A stretch of 38,590 nt of DNA from the IMG/VR virus record IMGVR_UViG_3300022908_000005, positions 1 to 38,590 of that record; one strand, given 5' to 3'. This document shows positions 2,769-38,427 of the stretch, piece after piece. Below the pieces are notes generated by a model that saw nothing but the letters and a program-made list of their open reading frames with translations, did no database searches and was not told the origin of the DNA. This DNA is from a virus. The position numbers were made by a program, and so were the translations under genes. How positions within the stretch are numbered: the first letter of the stretch is position 1; each line of letters begins with the position of its first letter.

Positions 2769-3101
2769 CTAGCGCTTCCGCCAGAGTTTGACCGCCTGCT
2801 CTGCCTGCTCCCGCTTTGATAGCCCGGGATCCTCGTCCGGCTCAGTCCCGCCGAAACAAGAGCACCGCTGCTCTTGATGAGCGACCGATCCGCTGATCGT
2901 GCGCAGAAAGCAGTCCTGGTGCCACGGCATGTAGATCGCTCCGTCCCGGGTAAGGCACGGCATCAGCAGGCCCGAGTCGTCCTCGCCGAAAAACTGCTCG
3001 CACCATGCGCAAGGCGCGGTCGGGGTACAGCTTCGGTTTTGAGGCTCGCACATCCGCGCGAACGGCTCAGGCCCGAACCACCGGATCGTGGTCGCGTCCA
3101 T
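2769..3101 (-). CDS. Cys/His-rich small protein
   Basis: The product has 110 residues. CAWC (31/34) and the H61-C64 pair (WHQDCF) could form one zinc site. Further cysteines at 18, 25, 49, 80 and 82 are irregular. Aromatic residues between (FFGEDD, IYMPWH) give it the look of a treble-clef or HNH-like mini-domain, but the HNH catalytic pattern is not complete. The start overlaps the upstream stop by one base (TGATG). Function unknown. Confidence 0.6.
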   Translation of the reverse strand: MDATTIRWFGPEPFARMCEPQNRSCTPTAPCAWCEQFFGEDDSGLLMPCLTRDGAIYMPWHQDCFLRTISGSVAHQEQRCSCFGGTEPDEDPGLSKREQAEQAVKLWRKR

Positions 3102-3484
3102 CAGTTCTCCTCCCTCGAGCCCGTCGATAGTACCCCGATCGTCCGCGTATGGATCGGGACCTCGATCAGCATCCGCCGGCAGCTCTCAGCATGGGTCACT
3201 AGTAGAACCCGCATGATGCCCTCCCGAGCGGGCTCGCGGAGGGGCAGCAAGTTCTCGTCCGGCCACTCCTCCTCCTCGCCCCGCGAGAGCGCGATCGATC
3301 GGGGTAGGTAGTACGCAAACCACTCCGCCGCATCGATGTAGATCACCCCGATCGTGTCGGCTAGCTTGTCCTCCACGATCGGCAGCTCTCCAAGCCGCTC
3401 CATCCCTTTGATGAACCGCGCCCGCATCCCCGGATCGAAATCGCGGAGCGGCGGGAACGCCTCCATGTAATCAGCCTCAGTCAT
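3101..3484 (-). CDS. Unknown protein, paralogue A
   Basis: The product has 127 residues and is related to the next gene upstream. Both begin MTE and share an N-terminal segment in which ARFIKGMERL here matches AQFIAGMERL there. Both continue with an IGVI strand, an FPRS/LPRS motif, and a hydrophobic strand near the C-terminus (MLIEVP, FLIGVP). The fold looks alpha then beta. The pair is separated by only 3 bp, so it arose by tandem duplication and then diverged strongly. No known family is recognised. Confidence 0.65.
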   Translation of the reverse strand: MTEADYMEAFPPLRDFDPGMRARFIKGMERLGELPIVEDKLADTIGVIYIDAAEWFAYYLPRSIALSRGEEEEWPDENLLPLREPAREGIMRVLLVTHAESCRRMLIEVPIHTRTIGVLSTGSREEN

Positions 3485-3487
3485 GGC

Positions 3488-3874
3488 CTAGTTGCTTTTC
3501 TCTTCCGGCTCGACGTAGCGGCGCATGGCCGGCACACCGATCAAAAACTCACCCCATGGCGCTAAGACCAAAACGTCGAACTCGCCCGGGTTTGGCGGCT
3601 CACGTAGCGCCGCGCAGGTTTCGGGGTGTAGCGAGAAATTCACCGGCTCGCGGTTTGTACTCTCCGCAATGACGGAGCGCGGGAAGTTAGAGGCCTCGAC
3701 GTGTCCCGTTGACAGCACCATTATCACCCCGATCCATTCCTCCATCGGACCGCGCAGGTTCATCGATTGCAATCGCTCCATGCCCGCGATGAATTGCGCG
3801 CGCTGCTCGGGCTTCCATTCCGCGAGCAATGGCAATGCCTTTAGGTAGGCCTGCTCCATGTCGGTCTCAGTCAT
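3488..3874 (-). CDS. Unknown protein, paralogue B
   Basis: I place the start at ATG 3874 (128 residues), not further upstream. This ATG overlaps the preceding stop as ATGA, is preceded by GGGAGAG at a suitable distance, and gives an N-terminus that aligns with paralogue A (MTE then a short helix). Shared features are QFIAGMERL at about 30-38, an IGVI strand and NFPRS at about 63-67. Function unknown. Two adjacent, diverged copies suggest a heteromer or divided roles, which is inference. Confidence 0.65.
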   Translation of the reverse strand: MTETDMEQAYLKALPLLAEWKPEQRAQFIAGMERLQSMNLRGPMEEWIGVIMVLSTGHVEASNFPRSVIAESTNREPVNFSLHPETCAALREPPNPGEFDVLVLAPWGEFLIGVPAMRRYVEPEEKSN

Positions 3875-4254
3875 GGCTTGCTCTCCCTTTCCGTCACGTG
3901 AGCCCACGGTTGCTCCCTCACACGCGCCAGCACGACCGCCGGATCGTCCGAATCAATCATCACCTCGTCATACGCCCCACTCCCGCCGGCCTCGAAGATC
4001 ACCCGAAACAAGGTGAGCACGTCCGCGATCGGCTGCCCCGGTTTCGTACTCCCCGAGTAGAAGCTTTTCCGGTCCTTGCTCTTGTCGGTCAAATCGTCGT
4101 CATGGTAGTAGCGGAACCGATACTCAAACCGCCACGTCTCCTCGCCCTGATCGCGGTAGATCCAGCCGAGCATATTGCCGACGTCGGGCCCGCCCAAAAT
4201 ATGCAGCTCCGCCCAAAACACGCGCGAGATAAACCGCCCGGGGATCAGCTCCAT
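3871..4254 (-). CDS. Unknown acidic protein
   Basis: The start ATG 4254 shares its A with the stop of the upstream gene (TAATG). A longer reading frame exists, but its extra N-terminus lies antiparallel over another gene's codons and is low-complexity. The 127-residue product has an aromatic-rich strand region (WRFEYRFRYYHDDD, about 42-55) and an acidic DSDDPAVVLARVREQ stretch near the end. No family is recognised. It belongs to the coupled leftward operon of small accessory genes. Confidence 0.6.
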   Translation of the reverse strand: MELIPGRFISRVFWAELHILGGPDVGNMLGWIYRDQGEETWRFEYRFRYYHDDDLTDKSKDRKSFYSGSTKPGQPIADVLTLFRVIFEAGGSGAYDEVMIDSDDPAVVLARVREQPWAHVTERESKP

Positions 4255-5077: not shown

Positions 5078-5277
5078 GGCTCACTCTCCTCATGCTCCGG
5101 CCCCTTGCCCCCACATTTGAGCGATCGTGGGTCGGCTCGGATGAATATGCCCGCATCGTCCGGCTCCCCGCAAACGCAGCAGACCCCGCCCGTGTCGCCT
5201 ACCAGCTGTGTCGGCTGCCGTTCCGGCTCCCTCTCTACCCAGCACTCAGGGCAGCACCGATGTGTCCATCCGCTCAC
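5074..5277 (-). CDS. 67-residue zinc-finger mini-protein
   Basis: The start is GTG 5277, which overlaps the upstream stop as GTGA. A longer frame lies mostly over the upstream gene and is rejected. The N-terminus reads WTHRCCPECW, a motif I know from small phage zinc proteins, followed by a Gln/Pro loop. A second cluster CCVCGEPD (33-36) and C55 complete one or two metal sites. The end is acidic. It probably binds zinc. The target is unknown. Confidence 0.65.
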   Translation of the reverse strand: MSGWTHRCCPECWVEREPERQPTQLVGDTGGVCCVCGEPDDAGIFIRADPRSLKCGGKGPEHEESEP

Positions 5278-5552
5278 GGCCGCCGCGCTTTCATCGCTTC
5301 CGCAATCTCGCGCAGCTGCGCATCGGTAGGGGGTGCGATTACCGGCGCAGTGTCCGCGCTCTCTGCCATTTTTGCAGCGCAGGAAAGGCAGACAAACGTG
5401 GCATAAGACGCTTCGGGTCGCGTGAATGAGGACGGTGAAAAAAAAGTCGGCTGGTCGCATAGCTGGCAGTTCAGCAAGCGCGTACCAGCGATTTCGTGCT
5501 CCATCCTCCCCTCGCTAGGGGCGCCCACCATGAAAATGGTATCGGTTGTCAC
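5274..5552 (-). CDS. Small zinc-ribbon protein
   Basis: The product has 92 residues from a GTG start at 5552 (GTGA overlap). Two CxxC pairs, CQLC (29/32) and CLSC (55/58), are 22 residues apart, with aromatic residues between them, as in zinc ribbons. The C-terminal helix (AQLREIAEAMKARRP) is basic. It lies between the XRE-type regulator and another zinc mini-protein. A DNA- or RNA-polymerase-associated role is conceivable, but nothing in the sequence proves it. Confidence 0.65.
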   Translation of the reverse strand: MTTDTIFMVGAPSEGRMEHEIAGTRLLNCQLCDQPTFFSPSSFTRPEASYATFVCLSCAAKMAESADTAPVIAPPTDAQLREIAEAMKARRP

Positions 5553-6481
5553 GACTCGCGCCCCGTATAGAACACGACCGCCCGCCGGAGCACCTCGTTC
5601 TCCTCGCGCAGCTGCGCCAACTCATGCGATCCGCCGGCTAGCTCCCCTCGAGCGCGGGCCGCGCGTAGCGTTGTATTCTCGTTTCGCAGCTCCGTTATCT
5701 CGTGCCGCATCCTTGCAACATCCGGAGCCGCGAAGTGCGCTCGGATCTCGGGCTCCGGTGCGGGCTCGTCCTCCTCCGGCTCCGGATCGGGGAACCGTTC
5801 CAGGTTTGTCACTACGACATTAGCGGCCGGCGCTTTCGGTCCGTCCCGGAGTTCGAGCAAGTGATCGAGATCCAGATCCAGCGCGATCGATAGCCCTAGC
5901 AAATCATCGTCAATGGGCGCCACATCCCCCGATTCATAGGTCGTGAGCCGCGTAGGGACTGCGAGCTTAGCAAGCCTTGCCGCGTCCTTTTGTTGCAAGC
6001 CCTTTGCGATCCGAGCCTTGCGCAGCGCCTCGGAGAGCGGGGTCGGGGTGTGCTGCTTGGGAACGCGCTTTCGTCTACCGCCGATCGGGATCGGAGCTTG
6101 CGGAGGGGGAGCGCTATCCGGGCGCTTCACCAGGACGAGATTTTGCGGCGCGGGCTCCGGCTTGTTTGCGGCCTGTGCCTCCGATTTCTGCCGAGCCTCC
6201 GCCTCGATCTGCGCATTGATCCGATCGATATCGGCCGGGCTAAGAAGCGGGGTCGAGACCTTGACCGCCTCCCTCGGAGCTTTCTCCATCGGTCTAAGGT
6301 CGGGGTACATAATGTGCTGAGGAGCTTGCGGCCCCTCGTTGTAAATCACCTCACACCCCCGGCTCGTCCGCCGATGGATCTTGGCCGGTCGCCACGTCTC
6401 CCTCCCGTTATGGGTGTTTCGGACCTCGACTGCTTGGAACCGATAGTAAACCTCTTGAACCTGCGCGCCTCGAATTGTCAT
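5549..6481 (-). CDS. XRE-type HTH protein with C-terminal leucine zipper
   Basis: The product has 310 residues. The N-terminal 70 residues are a small aromatic-rich domain of unknown type. A Pro/Ala linker leads to an XRE-like helix-turn-helix at about 148-213 (LRKARIAKGLQQKDAARLA, then TYESG). The C-terminal 60 residues form a coiled coil ending LREENEVLRRAVVFYTGR, very like the end of IS3-family OrfA. The start has a strong Shine-Dalgarno (GGAGAGGG). It is the third of three neighbouring DNA-binding proteins whose C-termini match each other. It is probably a DNA-binding regulator that can dimerise through the zipper. Confidence 0.75.
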   Translation of the reverse strand: MTIRGAQVQEVYYRFQAVEVRNTHNGRETWRPAKIHRRTSRGCEVIYNEGPQAPQHIMYPDLRPMEKAPREAVKVSTPLLSPADIDRINAQIEAEARQKSEAQAANKPEPAPQNLVLVKRPDSAPPPQAPIPIGGRRKRVPKQHTPTPLSEALRKARIAKGLQQKDAARLAKLAVPTRLTTYESGDVAPIDDDLLGLSIALDLDLDHLLELRDGPKAPAANVVVTNLERFPDPEPEEDEPAPEPEIRAHFAAPDVARMRHEITELRNENTTLRAARARGELAGGSHELAQLREENEVLRRAVVFYTGRES

Positions 6482-6515
6482 GGGTTATCCCTCTCCGCTT
6501 TGTTTGGTTTAGTCC

Positions 6516-6845
6516 CTACCCGCGTCCGAGCAGCACGATCGTTTTTCGCAATGCTCGGACCTCTTCCAATAATTGATCGCGCTCGCGAATGAGCGCACCC
6601 CGCTCGCTCTCACTCCCTCGAGCTTCTACCCCGTTCGATGGCGCCCGCGCTGCCGGGGTATATCCGGTGCGGCTCGGCTCCTCCGGAGCGCTACTGATCC
6701 CGTATTTGTGCGACCAGTAATAAAGGCGCGATTTGGAGACCCCGAGTTCCAGCGCGACCGCTTGCACTGATCTGCGCCCTCGGTTCCAAAACGCGCTAGC
6801 CGCCCGCCGCTCGAACTCCTCGCTATTTTGCGGCCGGCTTGTCAC
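6516..6845 (-). CDS. OrfA-like HTH/leucine-zipper protein 2
   Basis: The product has 109 residues from a GTG start that overlaps the upstream stop (GTGA). Residues 9-45 form a transposase-type helix-turn-helix (RSVQAVALELGVSKSRLYYW), as in the HTH_Tnp_1 domain of IS3 OrfA. After a disordered linker, residues 83-107 form a zipper (RDQLLEEVRALRKTIVLL). The layout and length match OrfA, but no DDE transposase frame or IS end lies nearby. It is probably a standing phage regulator derived from an OrfA-like protein. Confidence 0.75.
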   Translation of the reverse strand: MTSRPQNSEEFERRAASAFWNRGRRSVQAVALELGVSKSRLYYWSHKYGISSAPEEPSRTGYTPAARAPSNGVEARGSESERGALIRERDQLLEEVRALRKTIVLLGRG

Positions 6846-7192
6846 CCTCTCCGCCTCGCAAAAACCATGACGGTTTTCGTCAGGATCTCGATCTCCTCCC
6901 GGAGGGTATCGATCTCGCGCTTGAGTCCCGCGGTCTCTGGGTCGTAAGCCTTCCGCGCGACCATGGCCCGCGGCCGCTCGGGCTGCCGTGGCGCGAGCTT
7001 CTGAATACCCGCGGCCTTGCTGTCCGCTTTAGCCTTCCAAACGTAGAGAGTCGGCTCGCTCACCCCGATTGATTTCGCCGCCTCCGTCGAGGTCGACCCC
7101 TCCGATCGGAGTTTCGTCCATGTGGCGAGCGCCTTTTCAACGAAGGCCTCCGAATACTTGTAAGTTTTCGATTTCGACTGCTTTTTGCCCAT
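6842..7192 (-). CDS. OrfA-like HTH/leucine-zipper protein 1, operon lead
   Basis: I prefer ATG 7192 (116 residues) over an in-frame TTG at 7222. The helix-turn-helix lies at about 12-60 (YSEAFVEKALATWTKL, then TSTEAAKSIGVSEPTLYVWK), as in IS3-type OrfA. The C-terminal zipper (REIDTLREEIEILTKTVMVF) matches those of the two genes downstream. It heads the long leftward accessory operon and lies just after an AT-rich palindrome at 7223-7242, so it may control its own promoter. No transposase partner is present. Confidence 0.75.
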   Translation of the reverse strand: MGKKQSKSKTYKYSEAFVEKALATWTKLRSEGSTSTEAAKSIGVSEPTLYVWKAKADSKAAGIQKLAPRQPERPRAMVARKAYDPETAGLKREIDTLREEIEILTKTVMVFARRRG

Positions 7193-7222: not shown

Positions 7223-7242
7223 TTGATTACTAAACTAATCAA
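7223..7242. promoter_or_regulatory. AT-rich palindromic operator
   Basis: TTGATTA (7223-7229), a CTAAAC spacer and TAATCAA (7236-7242) form a perfect 7-bp inverted repeat. It is strikingly AT-rich for this DNA and lies 31 bp upstream of the first leftward gene. It is a probable binding site for a dimeric regulator, perhaps one of the three helix-turn-helix proteins it precedes. Confidence 0.6.
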
Positions 7243-7319: not shown

Positions 7320-7335
7320 GATTTCACGTGAAACG
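7320..7335. promoter_or_regulatory. parS-like palindrome
   Basis: The perfect 12-bp palindrome TTTCACGTGAAA (7322-7333), followed by C, matches the core of the bacterial chromosomal ParB site (consensus TGTTNCACGTGAAACA) at 13 of 16 positions. The mismatches are the two outer left bases and the last base. No ParA or ParB gene is seen in the window. It may attract host ParB, or be an operator of another kind. Confidence 0.45.
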
Positions 7336-7336
7336 A

Positions 7337-7365
7337 CTGGCGCGCGGATATCTGCGCGCTACACT
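7337..7365 (+). promoter_or_regulatory. Promoter A with palindrome in spacer
   Basis: The -35 candidate CTGGCG (7337-7342), 17 bp, then TACACT (7360-7365) as -10. The spacer region carries a near-perfect palindrome, GCGCGC/GGATATCT/GCGCGC (7340-7359, one mismatched pair). The gene's ATG is only 7 nt beyond the -10. A near-identical arrangement stands before the gene at 30911 on the other strand, so both are probably controlled by one dimeric repressor or activator. Confidence 0.6.
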
Positions 7366-7372
7366 GTCCAGC

Positions 7373-7570
7373 ATGCAAACGCATATTATGGTCGGTGAAT
7401 GGGGATACGCGGTCGATACGGATGCGGAGCGCGCGGAGGCGGTCCTTGCCCTGGTCGAGGCGGGCCAGGCGGAAGCCCGGGTCTATTTCGGCGATTTCGC
7501 GGATGATAGTAGCTATCCGAGCGAAAAATGCCTGACCGCAAAAGGGGAGATCCTCTTTGTCCAAGCGTGA
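7373..7570 (+). CDS. Small unknown protein
   Basis: The product has 65 residues from ATG 7373, which lies 7 nt after a plausible -10, so the message is probably leaderless. A second ATG (7388) is possible. The sequence has an acidic helix (DTDAERAEAVLALVEAGQ) and a strand-rich end (ARVYFGDF, GEILFVQA). No family is recognised. It leads a three-gene rightward operon transcribed away from the accessory operon. Confidence 0.55.
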   Translation: MQTHIMVGEWGYAVDTDAERAEAVLALVEAGQAEARVYFGDFADDSSYPSEKCLTAKGEILFVQA

Positions 7571-7574
7571 GTCT

Positions 7575-7892
7575 ATGCCCGCCAAGAAATCCCCCAAACG
7601 CCCCGGGCATCCCGGCGGGGTCTCCGGTCGCAATACCCAGCCGCAACGGCTCCTCCGCGCCCCGGCTGAGCTTTGGTCCCTAGTGGATCAGGCGGTCGCC
7701 GATAGTGGCGATACCTGGTCCAATTGGGCCCGCCATACGCTCGCGGCAGAGGCAGCCAAGCCCGCCATTAACCCCGAGCGGTTGGTCCATCACCTCATCA
7801 TGGGCGGATCCGGGCAGCCGGTTTCGGTCGGGGACTTGCAAGAATTGCTAGCTGTCTACGGGCTTACGATTGTCTCGAAAGGATCCAAATGA
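7575..7892 (+). CDS. Possible ribbon-helix-helix DNA-binding protein
   Basis: The product has 105 residues from ATG 7575. An upstream TTG gives a longer but less likely form. A Lys/Pro/Gly-rich N-terminus precedes LLRAPAELWSLVDQAVADSG and WSNWARHTLAAEA, which resembles the strand-helix-helix pattern of ribbon-helix-helix proteins. The stop overlaps the next start (ATGA). Its closeness to the palindromes at 7223-7365 makes it a candidate regulator of them, which is inference. Confidence 0.5.
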   Translation: MPAKKSPKRPGHPGGVSGRNTQPQRLLRAPAELWSLVDQAVADSGDTWSNWARHTLAAEAAKPAINPERLVHHLIMGGSGQPVSVGDLQELLAVYGLTIVSKGSK

Positions 7893-8197
7893 GCAAATAT
7901 CTAACCGTCCTACTCGCGCTTGGCGTGTTTGGGCTCGGCTCGGTCGCCGGCCGGCATAGCGCCTTAGCCGCCCCTCCCGGCACTCCGGACCCGGGCCATT
8001 ACATCGAAACCCGGGGCGGTCGGACGTTCACCCGTGATGGCCGGGTGTTTTTTATTGCGAACGACACGCGCGAGATCAACTCGGACAGTGACCCCGCGCG
8101 CGCGGGTAAATTTCTCGCGTCCGGCGACTATCGTCCGGCTATGGCGAGCGACGTGGAATGGATGGACGCTAGGTGCCAAGTGTGGAACCGCCGCTAG
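7889..8197 (+). CDS. Exported small protein with signal peptide
   Basis: The product has 102 residues. The first 27 form a classical signal peptide: a Lys at the N-terminus, a hydrophobic core (LTVLLALGVFGLGSVAG) and a probable cleavage after ALA. The mature part of about 75 residues is polar with two aromatic strands (GRVFFIAND) and a single Cys. It ends 4 bp inside the converging methyltransferase-like gene. Role unknown. Superinfection exclusion or lysogenic conversion would fit a secreted product of a small operon, but neither is shown. Confidence 0.6.
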   Translation: MSKYLTVLLALGVFGLGSVAGRHSALAAPPGTPDPGHYIETRGGRTFTRDGRVFFIANDTREINSDSDPARAGKFLASGDYRPAMASDVEWMDARCQVWNRR

Positions 8198-8757
8198 GGC
8201 TCGCGCGCCGAGGCTAACGCAATCAACCAGCGGGCGAAATCGGGAGGGGTTCGCCTGCGCTGCTGCGCGCTACAGACTTTGATCCCGGGCGGGACGGGCC
8301 CGCGGGGGGCATCACGGCTACCGCTCGCCCAATGGGTCGGGGTGCGTTCAGGCGGGAATGTGAGGGCGCTACGGGGCACGCCTACGAGGTAAAGCCAAGT
8401 CCGCTTGCGTGCTACGTGCCCCCAATTGCACTGACAGACTTCGAGCGAGTAGCCGCCAAAGCGATCGGCCGGCTCGCCCGGTCGCGGCAGCTCGCTTGCG
8501 CGCCATAAGAGCGAGTGTGCCGGATGCTCTAGCACCCCGCCGAATGCCCGAACCTGCGCGAGCGCGCGGACGGCGCAGTCGTGCTCCGCGCCCCGATAGA
8601 GGTGTTTCAGTTTGCCCCATGGCCCACACGGCGGATGCGCGACCACTGGCCCGGGCCCGTCATACAAGCGGGCATCACGGGTGATCCCGTAGCAGTGCTC
8701 CGGTCCGAGCAAAGCCGGGTAAGGCCCGCGCTCATCGATGTAGAGAGCCGCCACCAT
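8194..8757 (-). CDS. Orphan cytosine-methyltransferase-like protein
   Basis: The product has 187 residues. Residues 38-48 read VVAHPPCGPWG, where PPC resembles the catalytic Pro-Cys loop (motif IV) of C5 cytosine methyltransferases. GGVLEHPAHSLLW and DRFGGYSLEVCQCNWGH follow, a series I know from short phage proteins annotated as DNA methylase-like. It is much shorter than a full enzyme and lacks an evident SAM-binding motif I, so activity is doubtful. No restriction partner is nearby. It lies 74 bp after the large terminase and probably shares that leftward transcript. Confidence 0.6.
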   Translation of the reverse strand: MVAALYIDERGPYPALLGPEHCYGITRDARLYDGPGPVVAHPPCGPWGKLKHLYRGAEHDCAVRALAQVRAFGGVLEHPAHSLLWRASELPRPGEPADRFGGYSLEVCQCNWGHVARKRTWLYLVGVPRSALTFPPERTPTHWASGSRDAPRGPVPPGIKVCSAQQRRRTPPDFARWLIALASAREP

Positions 8758-12016: not shown

Positions 12017-13975
12017 ATGGCCGTTCAGCAAACTAAGTGGCATCGATTCGACAAGGGCTCGGAGATGGCCCGCGAGTTGGTTGCGCTTTGCTCCGCGCTC
12101 CAGACCGAGCAAAAGTCCCGCAAGACTCGCTGCCGCGACACTGCGAGCCGCTACGAGATGCGGAGGCTCGGCGGGCTGAACCCCGCGGCGTACTACCGAG
12201 CGGGCGCGTATTCTGGTCAGAACTCCGCCCCGCTCACGTGGCCGGAGGAGCGATCGATCGCGAACGCCGCGCACGCGAAGCTAGCCGGCCAGCAAAAGCC
12301 CAAGGTCCAATTTGTTACGAGTGACGCGGACTGGTCCACTAAGCGCAAAAGCAAAAAGCTGGATCGGTTTGTCGAGGGGCAATTTATGCAAGCCGTCGGC
12401 ATCTACGCCGATGTGTGGCAACTCATGTTGCGCGTGTTTCTGGACGCTTGCGTGTTTCCAACGGGCGGAGCGGTCAAGACTTTCGCGGACGATGAGGACG
12501 GGCGCGTTAGCTACGAGCGCGTGTTTACCTGGGAGCTGTTTGTTGACCCGCTAGAGGCCCGCTACGGCCAGCCGCGGAACCTTTTTCACGTCTACCCTTA
12601 CGACCGCGATGAGCTGATCGAACGGTTCCCCGCGCACAAGGACGCGCTCGAACGCTGCGCGGAGTTCGAGGAGGACGGGGAGGCGGAATGGACCGGCTCC
12701 CGTCGAGTATCGAACCAGATCAAGATCTGCGAGGCGTGGCGGCTCCCGTTCAGCTCGAGTAAGCCCGGGCGCCACGTCATTGCGATCGAGGATCAAACGC
12801 TGGTGGACGAGCCATGGACGCGGAATGAGTTCCCGTTCATCTGGCTTCACTGGTCGAAACACCTCGTCGGCTCGGACGGGACCAGCCTGATCGAGGAGAT
12901 CAGCAGCATCGCGGACGCGGTGAACGACACCGTTCAGCGGATGCAAGACTCGCATACGCGGACCAGTATGGGCGTGCTGAGCTATGAGGAGGGTTCCGTC
13001 CGCGAGGAGGACCTGCGCACCAATGAGGACGGGATCAATTTCCGTTTTGCGCCCGGCAAGACCCCGCCCGTGTATATCGCACCGCTCCCTTTCGGGCCGG
13101 CTAACGTCCAATTTCTAAACCTGAACGTCGACAAGATCCATGACGTGTCGGGCGTGAGCGAAATGCTTTCGAGCGGCGACAAGCCCTCGGGGGTTACGGC
13201 CGCGGTTGCGATGCGCGCCGTCGAGGATATTCAGTCCAAGCGATTCTCCGTTATCTATCGCGCGTATGAGGAGGCGTTCGTTTCGCTCGCGCGCCAGACG
13301 ATCGCGTGCGTGCGTGAGCTCGCCGAGGCCGACAAAAATTTTTCGAGCAAATGGAGCGGTAAAGGCTTCATCAAAACGATCAAGTGGTCGGACGTTGACC
13401 TCGAAGACGATCGCTACGTGATCCAAATCTACCCGGTCGGGGAGGTCAAAAACACGCCCGCCGATCGCTTGCAATTGATCCAAGAGCTGAACGCGGCCGG
13501 CAAGGTGTCGGACGAGGCCTTGCTAGAAACGATCAAGTATCTCGACTCGGCGCGCGAGCTGGAAAGCGTGAGCCGGCAGCGCGAGCTAGTAGAGAGCTAC
13601 ATCGATCAGTGGCTCGATGCGACCCCCGAGGCGGAGCAGGACGGCACGTTTCGTTATCGCCCTCCGATCCCATGGATGCCCTCGCTGCCGGATGCCCTCG
13701 TCCAAGTGGCGCAGGCCTATTTGGAGGCGGAGATGGACGAGGTCCCGGACTACAACAAGGATTTTTTCCTGCGCTTTATGCAAGAGCTGGATATGGAGAT
13801 CCAGCGCAAGGAAGCGCGCGCAGCGGGCAACGCTGCCGGGGCTCCGCCTCCCGTAGCTCCGAGCGGTCAGGATATGGGCGCGGACTCGCTAGCGGGCCCG
13901 CCAGGCATGCCTCCGGGGGTCCCCGAGATGCCTATGCCTCCGGGAGCCGCGCCAGTCGCGGCAATGGTGCAATGA
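12017..13975 (+). CDS. Portal protein
   Basis: This forms the dodecameric vertex through which DNA enters and leaves the head. The 652-residue product opens with helices, then ITALS-like segments with SIANAAHAKLAGQQKP near residue 80, a clip/stem region including SLIEEISSIADAVNDTVQRMQDS, and the DVSGVSEMLSSGDKPSGVTAAVAMRAVEDIQSKR stretch read in parts near 370-410, as in podovirus-type portals. The C-terminal 60 residues are Pro/Gly/Met-rich and likely disordered. It is the first gene of the rightward virion operon and overlaps the scaffold start. Confidence 0.85.
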   Translation: MAVQQTKWHRFDKGSEMARELVALCSALQTEQKSRKTRCRDTASRYEMRRLGGLNPAAYYRAGAYSGQNSAPLTWPEERSIANAAHAKLAGQQKPKVQFVTSDADWSTKRKSKKLDRFVEGQFMQAVGIYADVWQLMLRVFLDACVFPTGGAVKTFADDEDGRVSYERVFTWELFVDPLEARYGQPRNLFHVYPYDRDELIERFPAHKDALERCAEFEEDGEAEWTGSRRVSNQIKICEAWRLPFSSSKPGRHVIAIEDQTLVDEPWTRNEFPFIWLHWSKHLVGSDGTSLIEEISSIADAVNDTVQRMQDSHTRTSMGVLSYEEGSVREEDLRTNEDGINFRFAPGKTPPVYIAPLPFGPANVQFLNLNVDKIHDVSGVSEMLSSGDKPSGVTAAVAMRAVEDIQSKRFSVIYRAYEEAFVSLARQTIACVRELAEADKNFSSKWSGKGFIKTIKWSDVDLEDDRYVIQIYPVGEVKNTPADRLQLIQELNAAGKVSDEALLETIKYLDSARELESVSRQRELVESYIDQWLDATPEAEQDGTFRYRPPIPWMPSLPDALVQVAQAYLEAEMDEVPDYNKDFFLRFMQELDMEIQRKEARAAGNAAGAPPPVAPSGQDMGADSLAGPPGMPPGVPEMPMPPGAAPVAAMVQ

Positions 13976-16811: not shown

Positions 16812-17093
16812 GTGGCGGTCGTAGCCAAAAAGCCGCCGATCGATCTCGCCGTCATTATGGGCGGGCCAATGGGTAAAAAGCCCGGCGGCTCGTCCAAGGG
16901 CGGAGAGGACGATGAGGAGGAGGACGCGCCCGAATCTCGCCCCATGGGTGAGCACAAGCAGCATGACGAGGGCGACGATTTGCCCGCCGGTTTCGAGGAG
17001 GCCTTTAGTGAGGCGTTCCCCGAGGCCGCGGGCGATACGGACCGGATGCAAGCCGTCAAGCGGCTGATCCATTTGTGCGCCGGTAGTTACTAA
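16812..17093 (+). CDS. Small acidic virion-operon protein
   Basis: The product has 93 residues from a GTG start 3 bp after the previous stop. The middle is low-complexity and very acidic (GGEDDEEEDAPES). The C-terminal half is helical with a conserved-looking end (DRMQAVKRLIHLC). Small proteins with this look and position appear between coat and adaptor genes in related phages and may be assembly factors. Function not established. Confidence 0.55.
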   Translation: MAVVAKKPPIDLAVIMGGPMGKKPGGSSKGGEDDEEEDAPESRPMGEHKQHDEGDDLPAGFEEAFSEAFPEAAGDTDRMQAVKRLIHLCAGSY

Positions 17094-17107
17094 CTCGAGG
17101 TGGCAAC

Positions 17108-17824
17108 GTGGCTCGTGAGCGGACTCTGCTGCAAATGCAAACCGATCTGCGCTGGCAAGCGGACCAGCTCGGAGCCACGTTACGCCATGACCCCGCGTCA
17201 CTCACGCGGGTCATTAATCAATCGATCCAGCGATGGCGCGAATGGGTGAGCGAGCAGGGCTCTCCGCTCTACTTGACTCCACATAGCGGCGTGCTGGTGG
17301 TCGGTCCGACCGCGCCCTATGCGTTTGGAGCGATCGATTTTTCGGCATGGCTCCCGACCCCGGTCCATATCTACCAGCTCGAGGTAACAGTCAACGGTCA
17401 GATCCTCGACGTCCCCCAAATCCCTTTCGAGCAACGCAACCAATACCAGGGCATTTTCGGACCGACCCCGACCGGCTCGACGCAATCGATCCCTGTGGGG
17501 TTCATCCGCTACGGCAATACGCTCGGGATCGTCCCCCCGCCGCAGTCCGCTTACCCGTTTACCGTTTGGTACATGGGGCTCGCTCCGGATCTGGTCCTCG
17601 ATACGGATAAGTTTGACGGGATCACGGGCTGGGAGGAGTGGCTGACCTGGGATTGCCTCGTCAAAATCATCGTGCGGGACCATGACGCGGGCGCGTACGC
17701 GGTAGCGACCGCCGAGCGCGACCGCTTGCAAGCAGATTTCCAGCAACGGCTCCGCCAGGACCGGCCGAGTGTCGCCAAGCGTTACGACCTCCGGGGTATG
17801 CGCAACCGGAGAACCATGTTGTGA
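17108..17824 (+). CDS. Head-to-tail adaptor protein
   Basis: The product has 238 residues (GTG start). The N-terminal helices (LTRVINQSIQRWREWVSEQG) and following strands, then WEEWLTWDCLVKIIVRDHDA and a C-terminal basic helix with RDRLQADFQQRLRQ, resemble the helical adaptor proteins that extend the portal in P22-like podoviruses (gp4-type). Its position after the coat gene and before the nozzle protein agrees. The match is by pattern and position. Confidence 0.6.
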   Translation: MARERTLLQMQTDLRWQADQLGATLRHDPASLTRVINQSIQRWREWVSEQGSPLYLTPHSGVLVVGPTAPYAFGAIDFSAWLPTPVHIYQLEVTVNGQILDVPQIPFEQRNQYQGIFGPTPTGSTQSIPVGFIRYGNTLGIVPPPQSAYPFTVWYMGLAPDLVLDTDKFDGITGWEEWLTWDCLVKIIVRDHDAGAYAVATAERDRLQADFQQRLRQDRPSVAKRYDLRGMRNRRTML

Positions 17825-18240: not shown

Positions 18241-21200
18241 GCGAGCTACTCCCGATCGTGTTTGTGCGCGGCCAAAACGAGGGAATCGATCCGCGCGTCG
18301 CCCCGCCCGACGTGCATGCGGTCGCGCGGAATGTTCGATGGCGGAAAGACGGCCGTCCAGCGAAGCGCTACGGGGTCTCTGCCGTCACGACTACGGGACT
18401 CGCGACCTACAACGCGCAGCCGGTCAACGCGCTGACAAGCTGGAACCGTACGCCCGTGATTGCGGTCGGCTCGACCGTGCGGCAGCTCGGGGCGGCGGGG
18501 TGGAATCTGCCGGCTAGCGGCGTGCTGCTGCCGATCGGAGATATCGCGAAATTCGGACCGGGTGAGCACGACATCATTGCGCGTGACGAGACGGCCGTCC
18601 TCGATAATGCCACCAGCGGCAACGCGCAAGGCGTGACGCTTCACGCTTGGCAAACGGGCAGCGGGATCGCGTACGCGGCTAAAGCTCGGGACGGTACGGT
18701 GCTGCTCACCCCGCGCGTCATTGCGGGCTTGACCGCGAGTTATCCGCGCTGCGTTTCGACTACCAATTTCGTTTACCTCCTCACTCGAAACGGGACCGAT
18801 ATCCGGATCCTTACTTTCGATCCGATCGCCCTTACGCTCACATTTGGCGGCAGCGCTGGCACGCTGGCCACGGCGACAAGCTCCTTTGATGCGGTCGGCC
18901 GGGGCGCGGATTTCGTGATCGCCTTCCAATCGGGCCCGGGCGACCTCACGGTCCGGCTTTTCTCCGCGGTCGCATCCCCGGTCCAGCTCCAAAACCAGAC
19001 CTCGGTCGGGGCGATTGCTGCGAACACCAAGCTCGGGATCGGTAGCGCGCCCGGAGCTGCGATCTTTGTGCCGGGCGTAGAGCCCCTCGGGGCGGTCAAG
19101 TTCATCGTCTACAATACCGGCCTAACCGTTGGCCTCGGCGGAGGGGTGATCGAGGTAGACGCGAACAATAACGCGCAGCCGGGGGTTACGATTATTGATC
19201 CGTTGACGGCTGATATCGTTTGGGGCGGTTTCATTACCGCGACCGAGACTAGCTACATGCGCGCGACCCGGGTTGCTTCAACGGCGGTCGGCCCGGGCAT
19301 TAATGGGATCGGGACGTTCTATGGCGTGTCGCCCGCGTCCAAGCCCTTTGTTGGCCCGGCGTTCACTCCCTCCGGGGTCAACGTGGGTGACGGGCCTTAT
19401 GTTTGGGTCCATACCAGCAACGCGGACAACGGCAGCCGCAAGTGGGACGCGCAGCGGGGGTATTACCTCATGCGTTACGAGCCATCGGGTAACCCGGTTG
19501 TGGGTTGGCTGAGTCGCCATTTGCACGTGCCGGGAGTGCCGCCTAGCGCGACCTCGCATTTTCACCTCTCCGATATCCTCGACCTCGGCGGGGGGTTTGG
19601 CTATCTGGTCCCGCTCCTCAATGCGGTTCGGTACGGCAACGGCATCACGCCCGCGCTCGGTTTCGATACCGTCACGTTTCATTCCATTTTTGCAAGCCTC
19701 CGCACGGCAGCGCGCGACACGGTAACGACCGGCCGCGTGCTCCAATTTTCGGGCGGCTCATTGTTCGAGTTGAACGGGCAAGCGGAGGAAACGGGTTTCA
19801 GCAACTACCCCGTGATCCATTCGATCGCAGGCGGGGGCGGCGGAGGCGGAGGGCTAACCAACGGCTCGCAGTACCTATACCGCGCGGTTTACGAATGGCT
19901 CGACCACCAGGGACGGCGACACCGGTCGGCAGCGTCCGCGCCCTATCTGTTCGCTAACGGCGCAAGCAACTCGGCGCAGATCACGATCAAGCCCCTGATC
20001 GCAAGCTCGAGGGGTGACAAGAGTATGGGTTTCGTGTCTCCGGTCGGGGTAGTGGTCCACATTTACCGATCGCTAGCGGGCCAGTCCACCTATCACCGGG
20101 TAACGCCTAACACGGGCGCACCGGGCGCATGGAACGTAGGCGCAACGATCCTGTATCTCGACTCCATGCCCGACACGGTAGCGGGCGCGCAGGAGTTTAT
20201 TTATACCGATGGCGGGGTGGCGGATAACACCCTCTGCCCTCCGCACACTTTTTCGACGGTTTGCAACGGTCGGCTGTGGGTCGGAGGGCAGCTAGATCGA
20301 TGTGTCGTGACGGCTAGCAAATTGCTAGTCGACGGCGAACCGACCCAATTTAGCGACCTCGATCAGTTCAACTCTTTCCTCCCTGAGAAAAACACCGGCA
20401 TCGCTTCGATCGACGGCGTGGTCGTGCTGTTTGCTCGCGAGCGGATCTATTTTATCAACGGCGACGGACCGAACGATCAGGGTGTGGGCGATTTCGCCCC
20501 GCCCTCCGAGCTGCCGACCGACATCGGTTGTACTGACTGGCGCAGCGTGGCGGAGTCTTCGGTCGGGGTGTTCTTTCAGGGCAAGCGCGGGATCTATCTG
20601 CTGCCGCGTGGCTTTAACACGCCGCAATTTGTCGGGCTCGAGGTCGAGTCAACGCTTGCCGCCTATCCGATTATCACTAGCGCTACCGTCGTAGCCGTCC
20701 CGAGCAATGACGCCGCTACCCTCGGGGAGACCACGGTCCGCTTTGTAGCCTGCGCGAATGAGAGCGGGACCCCTAGTTGCGTTTTGGTCTACGACCTCCG
20801 CACGGGCGGCTGGTCCGTAGATGAACTCGCGGACGGGCCCAAGCTCGGCGGGACGTGGCTCGACGCTTTCATTACGGCCCGCACGGCCGCGGGCGTGCTG
20901 ACCTTGCACTCCGAGTCGGCTGCCGGGACCGGCTACGCTAACTATGCGGGCGCGTTCCTCCCGACCACGCTCGGGACTGGTGACATTCGCCCGTTTGGGA
21001 TCGCGGGCTATGGCAGCTTTGCCTCGGTCGTGCTGGTCGGGGAGTACCGCGGACCGTGCCAGGTGAGCGTGCAGATCTCGGTCGACGGCGCGGTGTCCGA
21101 TACCTTTACGTTTCCCGTCACGGGTCCCGATGGCCCGGCGGATAACTCGGTTTACCTGGACGTTACCCCGCGCATCCGCCTCGGAGCTGCGCTGCGCGTG

Positions 21201-30911: not shown

Positions 30912-31116
30912 GGTTTTCTCCAGTATGATGCGCGGATATCTGCGCGCCAGGCATTTCGCTAGCGATCGCGCGTGCGGCCTCCCTGAGCTGGATCGCTAGG
31001 GTGAGGAGGGATGCCAGCGTTTCGCGCTTTCGGTCGCCCTGTTCAGCCCAATAGACGGCATTTCCTAGCTGGATCCGGGCCTGACCGAGCAGCAACAAGG
31101 GGTCGGGGTGCGCCAT
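30904..31116 (-). CDS. Small helical protein, operon lead
   Basis: The product has 70 residues and is predicted wholly helical (LLLLGQARIQLGNAVYWAEQ, then ETLASLLTLAIQLREAARAI). ATG 31116 is 8 nt after a good -10 hexamer, so translation is probably leaderless. The stop overlaps the next start by 8 bp. The 3' end carries promoter B. No family recognised. Small helical leads in recombination operons may be anti-host or regulatory proteins, but nothing shows this. Confidence 0.55.
   Translation of the reverse strand: MAHPDPLLLLGQARIQLGNAVYWAEQGDRKRETLASLLTLAIQLREAARAIASEMPGAQISAHHTGENHV
30922..30950 (-). promoter_or_regulatory. Promoter B with palindrome in spacer
   Basis: Reading leftward, CTGGCG (30950-30945) is the -35, followed by 17 bp and CATACT (30927-30922) as -10. 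The spacer holds the GCGC/AGATATCC/GCGC palindrome. The 18 bases at 30930-30947 are identical to those at 7342-7359. Both -35, spacing and -10 match promoter A. It lies inside the end of the upstream gene and would let the Bet operon be driven separately. Confidence 0.6.
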
Positions 31117-31175
31117 TGCCTAGTATTGTACGCTTTGCTAGGAATGTAGGCAATGCTATTTCCGAGGTAGCATTG
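31115..31175 (-). promoter_or_regulatory. Leftward promoter with two inverted repeats
   Basis: Reading leftward, TTGCCT (31153-31148), 17 bp, then TACAAT (31130-31125) is the best promoter in the window, and the ATG follows 8 nt later. ATTGCCTA (31115-31122) and TAGGCAAT (31147-31154) are inverted arms bracketing it. CAATGCTA (31151-31158) and TAGCATTG (31168-31175) form a second perfect 8-bp repeat. These are probable operators of the repressor, the Cro-like protein or another regulator. Confidence 0.65.
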
Positions 31176-31281: not shown

Positions 31282-31644
31282 ATGCTGGGGCTCATCGTCG
31301 GAGGCACGCTTTCATTGTATCGGATCGGGACACATGGACCGGAGCCGTTCGCCACGGTCCACGGGGACGCGGACGCTATCGCGCTCGCTTTCGAGACGGC
31401 GAGCGCAGTCGAGGCGCTAGCGCTGGCCTGCGGCGGCTGGTCCGAGTCGGAGCGACTCGCCGTAAATGCGCATAAACCAGGCAATTCGCGGCAGGTCTCG
31501 CCCGAAATCCTCGACCAGAATACGCTCTATAGCGGCCTCGGAGAGCTGCAAATTGCGCGCGCTCTCGACTGCCCAGGCCCGGTTCGGGTAGATATCGAGC
31601 GCGGGCGGCGGGGCAAGCTCCCCGGTAATAGCGGTCACCGGTAG
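31282..31644 (+). CDS. Doubtful protein converging on the repressor gene
   Basis: The 120-residue frame starts at ATG 31282. Its first 60 codons look like real coding sequence for this genome (GDADAIALAFETASAVEALAL), and no better frame covers 31210-31416. The last 228 bp run antisense over the repressor gene and read as low-complexity Arg/Gly. No Shine-Dalgarno or promoter is clear. It may be a genuine small gene with a long antisense tail, or chance. Confidence 0.35.
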   Translation: MLGLIVGGTLSLYRIGTHGPEPFATVHGDADAIALAFETASAVEALALACGGWSESERLAVNAHKPGNSRQVSPEILDQNTLYSGLGELQIARALDCPGPVRVDIERGRRGKLPGNSGHR

Positions 31645-31884
31645 GCCGAGGGCGCGGGCGATCTTGGCGGCGGTCACCATAGACAGGGACGCATCCGGAT
31701 CGGCGGCTAATCGGCGCCGTAGATTCTCGGGGTAGCTCCGGGAGAGCCCGCACCCCTTAGGGCTCCAGAACTCCGTGGCGGTTCGGTAGCGGCCGTCCTC
31801 GATGGCCTCCCGAACCAGCCGATCGATCCGGGCTGCAATTGTTTCTCGCTTCGCTATCACGGCCGATAGGTCATAGCACGACAC
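31417..31884 (-). CDS. Probable lysogeny repressor
   Basis: The product has 155 residues from a GTG start at 31884. Residues 35-90 carry an XRE-like DNA-binding domain (LSRSYPENLRRRLAAD, then SLSMVTAAKIARALGLPVTAITG). The C-terminal 65 residues are helical, perhaps for dimerisation. There is no LexA/CI-type Ser-Lys peptidase, so induction by RecA-driven self-cleavage is not expected. It is divergent from the Cro-like gene across an 80-bp gap with two operators. The -10 lies 6 nt before the GTG, giving a leaderless message as for lambda cI from PRM. Confidence 0.7.
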   Translation of the reverse strand: MSCYDLSAVIAKRETIAARIDRLVREAIEDGRYRTATEFWSPKGCGLSRSYPENLRRRLAADPDASLSMVTAAKIARALGLPVTAITGELAPPPALDIYPNRAWAVESARNLQLSEAAIERILVEDFGRDLPRIAWFMRIYGESLRLGPAAAGQR

Positions 31885-31913
31885 CTAGAAAAGTTAGCAC
31901 CCAATGTAGGTGT
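31881..31913 (-). promoter_or_regulatory. Repressor promoter and operator
   Basis: ACACCTA (31881-31887) and TAGGTGT (31907-31913) form perfect inverted arms around the probable repressor promoter. Leftward, ACGACA (31918-31913), 16 bp and TAACTT (31896-31891) serve as -35 and -10. The arms therefore cover the start codon and the -35 edge, as expected for a site that shuts the repressor gene off. Confidence 0.5.
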
Positions 31914-31926
31914 GTCGTTTTGAGAC

Positions 31927-31960
31927 TTGCCGAGTAATCTAGCAGGGTGTAGTTTACTCG
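31927..31960 (+). promoter_or_regulatory. Cro-side promoter and operator
   Basis: TTGCCG (31927-31932), 17 bp, then TAGTTT (31950-31955) is a plausible rightward promoter, 9 nt before the Cro-like ATG. CGAGTAA (31931-31937) and TTACTCG (31954-31960) are perfect 7-bp inverted arms that cover both the -35 and the -10. The repeat differs from the one on the repressor side, so two proteins may each have their own site. Confidence 0.55.
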
Positions 31961-31964
31961 TCAA

Positions 31965-32243
31965 ATGCTGACATTCTCCGAGCGGCTCCAAATCGCCAGG
32001 AAACGGCGCGGGTTATCCCAGCGCGAGCTAGCGAATTTGGCCGGGGTTTCTAATTGCTACGTGGGATTGATGGAGCGGATCGGGACCCCGACCGGTTCGA
32101 TCAAAGCCCCGACTTTGCGCTCGGTCGAAAAGCTAGCGCTTGCGCTCGGGGTGGCGGCTGAATGGCTCGCGTTCGGAGCCGGGCGCGCGCCATCGTGGCG
32201 TGAGTTGCGGCCGACCAATGACGCAAGCAAGGGCGCAGCGTGA
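31965..32243 (+). CDS. Cro-like HTH_XRE regulator
   Basis: The product has 92 residues. Residues 4-65 form an XRE helix-turn-helix: ERLQIARKRRGLSQRELANL, then AGVSNCYVGLMERIG and a third part SVEKLALALGVAAEWLAFG. The size and place, opposite the repressor and first in the rightward early operon, are those of Cro. It probably represses the repressor promoter and its own. The stop overlaps the endolysin start (GTGA). Confidence 0.75.
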   Translation: MLTFSERLQIARKRRGLSQRELANLAGVSNCYVGLMERIGTPTGSIKAPTLRSVEKLALALGVAAEWLAFGAGRAPSWRELRPTNDASKGAA

Positions 32244-37929: not shown

Positions 37930-38098
37930 AATTGTGGGGATAGCTCGCCCCGGGGGTAAGTACCACGCGGCAGCTTGGCTGGTCCGGTGCACAAACTGTG
38001 GATAAGAGTATGCCCGCACGGGCTCACGCTCATCAGTGCGGCGTGCGCGCTGGTGTGCGGACTGCGGCTACCGGGCTCGAGGGAAGCGGAGCGGCTAG
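37919..38098 (+). pseudogene. Zinc-ribbon gene interrupted by in-frame TAA
   Basis: ATG 37919 opens a frame of 28 codons ending LVRCTNCG, then TAA at 38003-38005. The same frame goes on open for 30 more codons containing WCADCGYRARGKRSG and stops with TAG at 38096-38098. CTNC before the stop and CADC after it form one normal CxxC...CxxC zinc ribbon with basic residues between. The final TAG overlaps the GTG of the next gene, the coupling expected of the full frame. It is therefore either a nonsense mutation, a sequence error or a read-through product. Confidence 0.6.
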
Positions 38099-38427
38099 TG
38101 GCTGAAACGCAGCTCTCTCGCAGTATTCAGAAGGAGCTAACCAAGCTCGGGATCTGGTGGATCCGTATCCAGAGCGGGACGCATCGCGTCCGGGGCGGGA
38201 TGCTCCACTGCGCGGAGCCCGGCACCCCGGATCTCTGCCTCCCCGCGCTCGGCTGGCTTGAGATCAAGCTCCCAGGCAGCGAGCCATCTAGCGTTCAGCT
38301 GAGCTGGCACTCCCGAGCTGTTCGAGAGGGGCTGCGCGTGGCTGTCGTTCGCAGTGTAGGCGAAGCGGTGGCAGTAGCGCGGAGGTGGGAGGCGGAAGCG
38401 CGATCCGGGCAGCTCGGAGAGAGCTGA
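38098..38427 (+). CDS. VRR-NUC-type nuclease
   Basis: The product has 109 residues from GTG 38098 (TAGTG overlap). It follows the VRR-NUC fold: an N-terminal helix with basic residues (ETQLSRSIQKELTKLGIWW), IQSG, then GTPDLCLP (metal-binding Asp of the PD motif), WLEIKLPG (the E-x-K part), Q after it, and a C-terminal RVAVVRSVGEA. Such single-domain nucleases in phages cut flaps or junctions in recombination and replication. It ends the rightward operon. Confidence 0.8.
   Translation: MAETQLSRSIQKELTKLGIWWIRIQSGTHRVRGGMLHCAEPGTPDLCLPALGWLEIKLPGSEPSSVQLSWHSRAVREGLRVAVVRSVGEAVAVARRWEAEARSGQLGES

Follow-up and report, generated by a model that had tools for sequence, protein, structure and literature searches.

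Three adjacent leftward genes of the window (the whole stretch of 38,590 nucleotides analysed here) encode the proteins P1, P2 and P3. On balance, we favour the explanation that this trio is a regulator cassette, derived from OrfA and domesticated by a temperate phage, whose proteins act mainly as homodimers on the cassette's own promoter and on neighbouring ones. The cassette is real and conserved, and is probably undescribed as such; it is composed of known parts and is found in two phages only, namely that of the window and one related phage, L003. No described phage system of this kind was found in the literature covered, where subscription journals mostly lay outside the coverage. A regulatory system had been proposed at this locus in a preliminary description of the sequence, and the conservation of both the trio and its promoter in L003 makes such a cassette likely.

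Layout and domains of the trio

The three open reading frames that the preliminary description had placed in a row at 5549–7192 all lie there on the minus strand, and the genes of the region are as follows.

6842–7192, minus strand: P1, 116 aa; OrfA-type helix-turn-helix (HTH), linker and C-terminal helix at residues 85–115 (AF2)
6516–6845, minus strand: P2, 109 aa; OrfA-type HTH and C-terminal zipper
5549–6481, minus strand: P3, 310 aa; putative Tudor/SH3-like beta domain (low confidence), XRE HTH and two zipper units
5274–5552, minus strand: operon gene after P3; Cys-rich, zinc-ribbon-like by eye
7557–7892, plus strand: small basic protein on the divergent side; ribbon-helix-helix look by eye

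The genes of P1 and P2 overlap by 4 bases (GTGA), that of P3 follows after a gap of 34 bp, and the gene at 5274–5552 overlaps the P3 stop by 4 bases, which indicates that the trio heads a leftward operon running toward position 946. This operon is long and accessory, its genes are overlapping or closely spaced, and those downstream are without an informative family match. The window also holds a tandem paralogous pair of small proteins of unknown function at 3101–3484 and 3488–3907, which is in tandem in L003 as well (16902–17276 and 17280–17657). In L003, the trio occurs in the same order with proteins 45–53% identical to those of the window, the orthologue of the 5274–5552 gene also comes after P3, and the orthologue of the 7557–7892 gene, for which a database match was sought and none was found, is also directly divergent. 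P1 starts at ATG 7192, and its L003 orthologue uses the equivalent ATG, 30 bp past the same palindrome.

The homology of P1 and P2 to OrfA is found with Pfam, the NCBIfam IS3 and PHROG transposase families and a two-sequence OrfA profile. Against Pfam HTH_Tnp_1, P1 scores 29.3 bits, above the cut-off of 24.1, and P2 scores 20.3 bits, just under it. The two proteins are diverged paralogues with 34% identity (E 1.2e-6). The AF2 model of P1 has a mean pLDDT of 72, and its best fold match is the IS-type TnpE 2rn7 (E 0.03). The XRE HTH of P3 lies at about residues 150–211; its score against Pfam HTH_3/XRE is 21.6 bits (E 2e-4), just under the cut-off of 23.0, and in the PDB it matches DdrO (E 1.6e-4). 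Thus, the earlier assignment of OrfA-type HTHs to two of the proteins and of an XRE domain to the third is borne out. The N-terminal beta domain of P3 (residues 17–64) is modelled as a small beta barrel, whose best Foldseek matches are Tudor/PWWP folds with a probability of up to 0.98 and a non-significant E; the P3 model itself is of low confidence (pTM 0.23), and the domain may tentatively be described as Tudor/SH3-like.

Zipper tails and pairing

The last ~25 residues of all three proteins follow the pattern L-x6-L-[RK]-x-E-x3-L-x3-[VIL]-x2-[FYL]-x2-R, from which P2 departs slightly. The a/d core of the P1 zipper consists of L90 I94 L97 I101 L104 V108 F111, and the core of the P2 zipper of L85 R89 L92 V96 L99 I103 L106; in P3, two zipper units are found, at residues 255–277 (HEITELRNENTTLRAA) and 284–305 (HELAQLREENEVLRRA). 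When a profile trained on the P1 and P2 tails alone was run on the C-termini of 3,809 open reading frames, P3 of the window was the top match beyond the training set (E 1e-4), and the L003 orthologue of P3 ranked third (E 0.06). A profile built from phi3T_27 and E. coli InsE1, both genuine IS3 OrfAs, agrees, since five of the six cassette proteins rank first with it; its E-values are 9e-9 for P1, 0.015 for P3 and 0.016 for P2. As judged from these sequence comparisons, the likeness of P3 to the P1 and P2 zippers exceeds chance, in line with the single zipper type noted earlier for all three. The zipper tails are retained in the L003 trio, where P3 keeps the final zipper unit only, which suggests selection on that unit.

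The central 'a' position is occupied by Asn in P3 (N295, also in L003), by Ile in P1 (Cys in L003) and by Val in P2. According to the rules of coiled-coil pairing, a buried Asn at 'a' disfavours pairing with a hydrophobic residue opposite. Because the Asn of P3 would face Ile, Val or Cys, P3 homodimers are predicted to be favoured over P3:P1 and P3:P2. A buried Asn is likewise present in IS2 OrfA (PMC3219604).

The preliminary description had further proposed a combinatorial network, in which the three proteins mix as heterodimers through their matching zippers; composite DNA specificities would result. The heptad register is identical in the three proteins, with E at g and R at e in each, so that electrostatics are no bar to mixing, and the aligned central cores of P1 and P2 are hydrophobic. 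On the other hand, N295 of P3, lying opposite Ile or Cys in P1 and Val in P2, disfavours pairing with P3. A network of all three is therefore regarded as a doubtful possibility, and the sequences leave open a possible mixing of the P1 and P2 zippers.

The divergent promoter region

The window and L003 have four blocks in common in the interval from P1 to the divergent gene, although the proteins encoded on either side share only about half of their residues. In short form, these blocks are TGATTAGTTTAGTAATCA, GCAAAATCGTCTCG, TTTCACGTGAAA and GCGCnGATATCnGCGC; as aligned between the two phages, they extend to TGATTAGTTTAGTAATCAATT-GACTTGACCC, GCAAAATCGTCTCG, CGTTTCACGTGAAATC and GCGCnGATATCnGCGC. 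The corresponding sites in the window are listed below.

7223–7242, minus strand: palindrome TTGATTAGTTTAGTAATCAA, 30 bp upstream of P1, likewise in L003
7271–7284, minus strand: non-palindromic conserved block GCAAAATCGTCTCG, from the comparison of the window with L003
7322–7333, (.): perfect 12-bp palindrome TTTCACGTGAAA, with identical flanks CG...TC in L003 (12473–12484)
7342–7357, (.): palindrome GCGCGGATATCTGCGC, just upstream of the divergent start ATG 7374; L003 equivalent at 12451–12466
30930–30945, (.): GCGCGGATATCTGCGC again, as an exact copy, 18 bp ahead of ATG 30911, the start of the leftward gene that comes before RecT

Both palindromic regions to which attention had been drawn beside the trio, 7223–7242 and 7340–7359, are conserved in L003. 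The latter does not stand simply as the trio's own operator, because it adjoins the start codon of the divergent gene and has a further copy ahead of the RecT operon. The chance of each single intergenic palindrome alone is roughly 8–14%, and the palindromes are credible because they are conserved in L003. A scan of this region of the window for sigma-70-like promoters gave none, and a search of Rfam gave no matches.

The 18-bp core of TTGATTAGTTTAGTAATCAA is identical in L003 (12561–12578) and in L042, and occurs in just four viral contigs in a count that leaves out the window's own record. In L042, an unrelated phage with divergent XRE genes, the 18-mer lies right before one XRE start and a variant lies near the opposite XRE gene (253–270 and 351–368); a collection this large is estimated to give one or two matches by chance, and the 18-mer in L042 could be among them. 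The matches in L043 and L044 fall within or close to unrelated coding sequence and were attributed to chance.

The GATATC palindrome has two exact matches in each phage versus zero expected from shuffles. All of these sites are about 13–18 bp before start codons and near a TAnAnT-like hexamer; in the window, they precede the divergent gene and the RecT operon, and in L003 the divergent gene and the gene that follows the nuclease (GCGCnGATATCnGCGC copy at 20626–20641). GCGCnGATATCnGCGC thus adjoins two start codons per phage, the second in the window being that of the RecT operon, and it is a candidate phage-wide operator. No intergenic copy of the palindrome is present in the records of L015 and L013, both of which are without the trio. 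The 16-mer matches in L055, L056 and L058 fall within or close to coding sequence that is unrelated and were likewise attributed to chance, and a near-match at L046:7196 is inside a gene. Exact 16-mer repeats are not rare in the window genome, even by a count that is a lower bound, and the argument for the palindrome accordingly rests on its palindromic form, its position and the second phage.

These palindromes also bear on a different role for P1 and P2, namely that of dominant-negative OrfAs, which would pair with host IS3-family transposases or compete for their ends and so guard the phage against IS insertion. The zipper of OrfA/OrfAB serves as the domain for multimerisation in IS911 and IS2 (PMC2909936, PMC3219604), and P1 and P2 preserve the architecture of these multimerising OrfAs. 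This role is nevertheless considered improbable, as it leaves the XRE domain of P3, the pair of paralogues and the conserved promoter palindromes unexplained.

In bacteria, parS has the consensus TGTTTCACGTGAAACA, whose core is the palindrome TTTCACGTGAAA that lies at 7322–7333. At this site, 13 of the 16 parS positions are matched. The M. xanthus parS consensus is TGTTCCACGTGGAACG (PMC3899335). No ParB_N domain is encoded by the window phage, and an occurrence of TTTCACGTGAAA in L020 was rejected, being within coding sequence. From the sequence of the site, a link to host ParB is possible. We give little credence to a zipper-linked hub, in which P1, P2 and perhaps P3 would swap partners and read the four sites; if it were true, host ParB would feed into the phage accessory-operon switch through TTTCACGTGAAA.

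Related phages, known systems and the proposed mechanism

The search for the trio in other phages that had been suggested earlier found it in a single other viral contig, L003, whose terL is 83% identical to that of the window. With terL, 32 related viral contigs were found, and a genome scan gave one MAG contig only, at 50% identity. Scans of the viral contigs with P1 and P3 as single proteins gave nothing, alignment scans gave L003 only, a P1-type match was absent from nine other records searched, and HMMs of all three proteins gave nothing convincing in the longer records, several of which are fragments; a genome scan with P3 found no relative. As two phages alone carry the trio, the evidence of conservation is one pairwise comparison. 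In both L015 and L005, terL is followed within about 0.5 kb by a homologue of the nuclease at the right end of the window (37975–38427); judged by this gene order, the 8.7-kb trio block has the appearance of an accessory segment inserted in the window phage and in L003. A phrog_12600 homologue is found to one side of the trio in the window (8194–8757) and to the other side in L003 (18184–18771), which indicates that the accessory block was reshuffled. At L046 9358–10315 (related phage L004), a cluster of another kind was observed, made up of three small HTH genes (XRE, HTH, XRE) that lack such zippers.

The window phage encodes an integrase, RecT and a replication protein, and is therefore taken as temperate. 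Around two other HTH genes, it carries inverted repeats at 31885–31964 and 31110–31170 (ACACCTA...TAGGTGT; TTGCCTA...TAGGCAA), which together with these genes are probably a lysogeny switch with different operators.

P1 and P2 have weak PHROG matches to terminase small subunits (E 0.001 or worse), proteins with an HTH and a coiled coil encoded near terL. Such a function is very improbable, because OrfA families match P1 and P2 better, two paralogues plus P3 are present, and relatives with 54–77% identical terL, including the 37.9-kb L015 record, are without a P1-type match. A decayed insertion-sequence remnant, for which the homology of P1 and P2 to OrfA speaks, can practically be dismissed: all the open reading frames are intact, L003 keeps their order and start sites at 45–53% identity, no rve/DDE domain was found in the 38.6-kb record, and a search for IS-end-like inverted repeats flanking the trio gave no suitable pair, so that the preliminary description was right to report neither transposase nor IS ends. 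Lying beside a promoter region that is kept in a related phage, the trio has the look of a gene-control cassette and not of a broken transposon.

The cassette resembles three kinds of known system in part. In IS3-family OrfAs (IS911, IS2, IS3 InsE and phi3T_27), as in P1 and P2, an HTH_Tnp_1-type HTH is followed by a C-terminal zipper of three to four heptads, whose heptad core is present in P1, P2 and P3 and which, as in the cassette, ends in a short hydrophobic stretch carrying basic residues; a buried zipper Asn is common to P3 and IS2 OrfA. Unlike these OrfAs, the cassette has no OrfB/DDE frame and no IS ends, and consists of tandem paralogues plus an XRE protein bearing the same tail. XRE/Cro-CI-type repressors (DdrO by PDB match, RstR by profile) share the XRE HTH of P3, and autorepressors of this type have a palindromic site just upstream of the operon start, like the candidate operator here, whereas P3 has the Tudor/SH3-like N-terminal domain and an OrfA-type zipper at its C-terminus. 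P3 is also separate from the phage's two other small HTH genes (31417–31884 and 31965–32243). Aca-type regulators act on phage accessory (anti-CRISPR) operons. These autoregulators are likewise small HTH proteins with a promoter palindrome and an accessory operon of small unknown proteins; the cassette differs in having three different regulators at the operon head, and no known anti-CRISPR was identified.

In the favoured regulatory cassette, an IS3-type OrfA with HTH and zipper would have lost its transposase partner and been duplicated to yield P1 and P2, and P3 would be an XRE protein that combines a Tudor-like N-terminal domain with a zipper tail of the P1/P2 type. Each protein would dimerise by its zipper, mainly as a homodimer. 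The XRE domain of P3 may bind TTGATTA-n6-TAATCAA, 30 bp before P1, and autoregulate the operon; a cassette protein or the small divergent protein may bind GCGCnGATATCnGCGC. Between the window and L003, the recognition helices of P1 and P2 diverge at their DNA-contact positions while the operators are nearly identical, and hence the sequences do not reveal which protein belongs to which site; the [TS]RL core of P3 is kept in both phages. The conserved sites may belong to P3, to the small divergent protein or to a host protein. By analogy, the cassette could work like the Aca-type HTH autoregulators, tying the expression of the accessory operon to that of the recombination operon, and the accessory operon is probably co-ordinated with the RecT operon.

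The trio is a tangible example of helper proteins of insertion sequences that have probably become phage regulators, with one zipper tail common to OrfA-type and XRE-type proteins and with candidate operators defined by comparison. With small proteins and a single 180-bp promoter, it makes the domestication of OrfA and the specificity of zippers among adjacent regulators testable.
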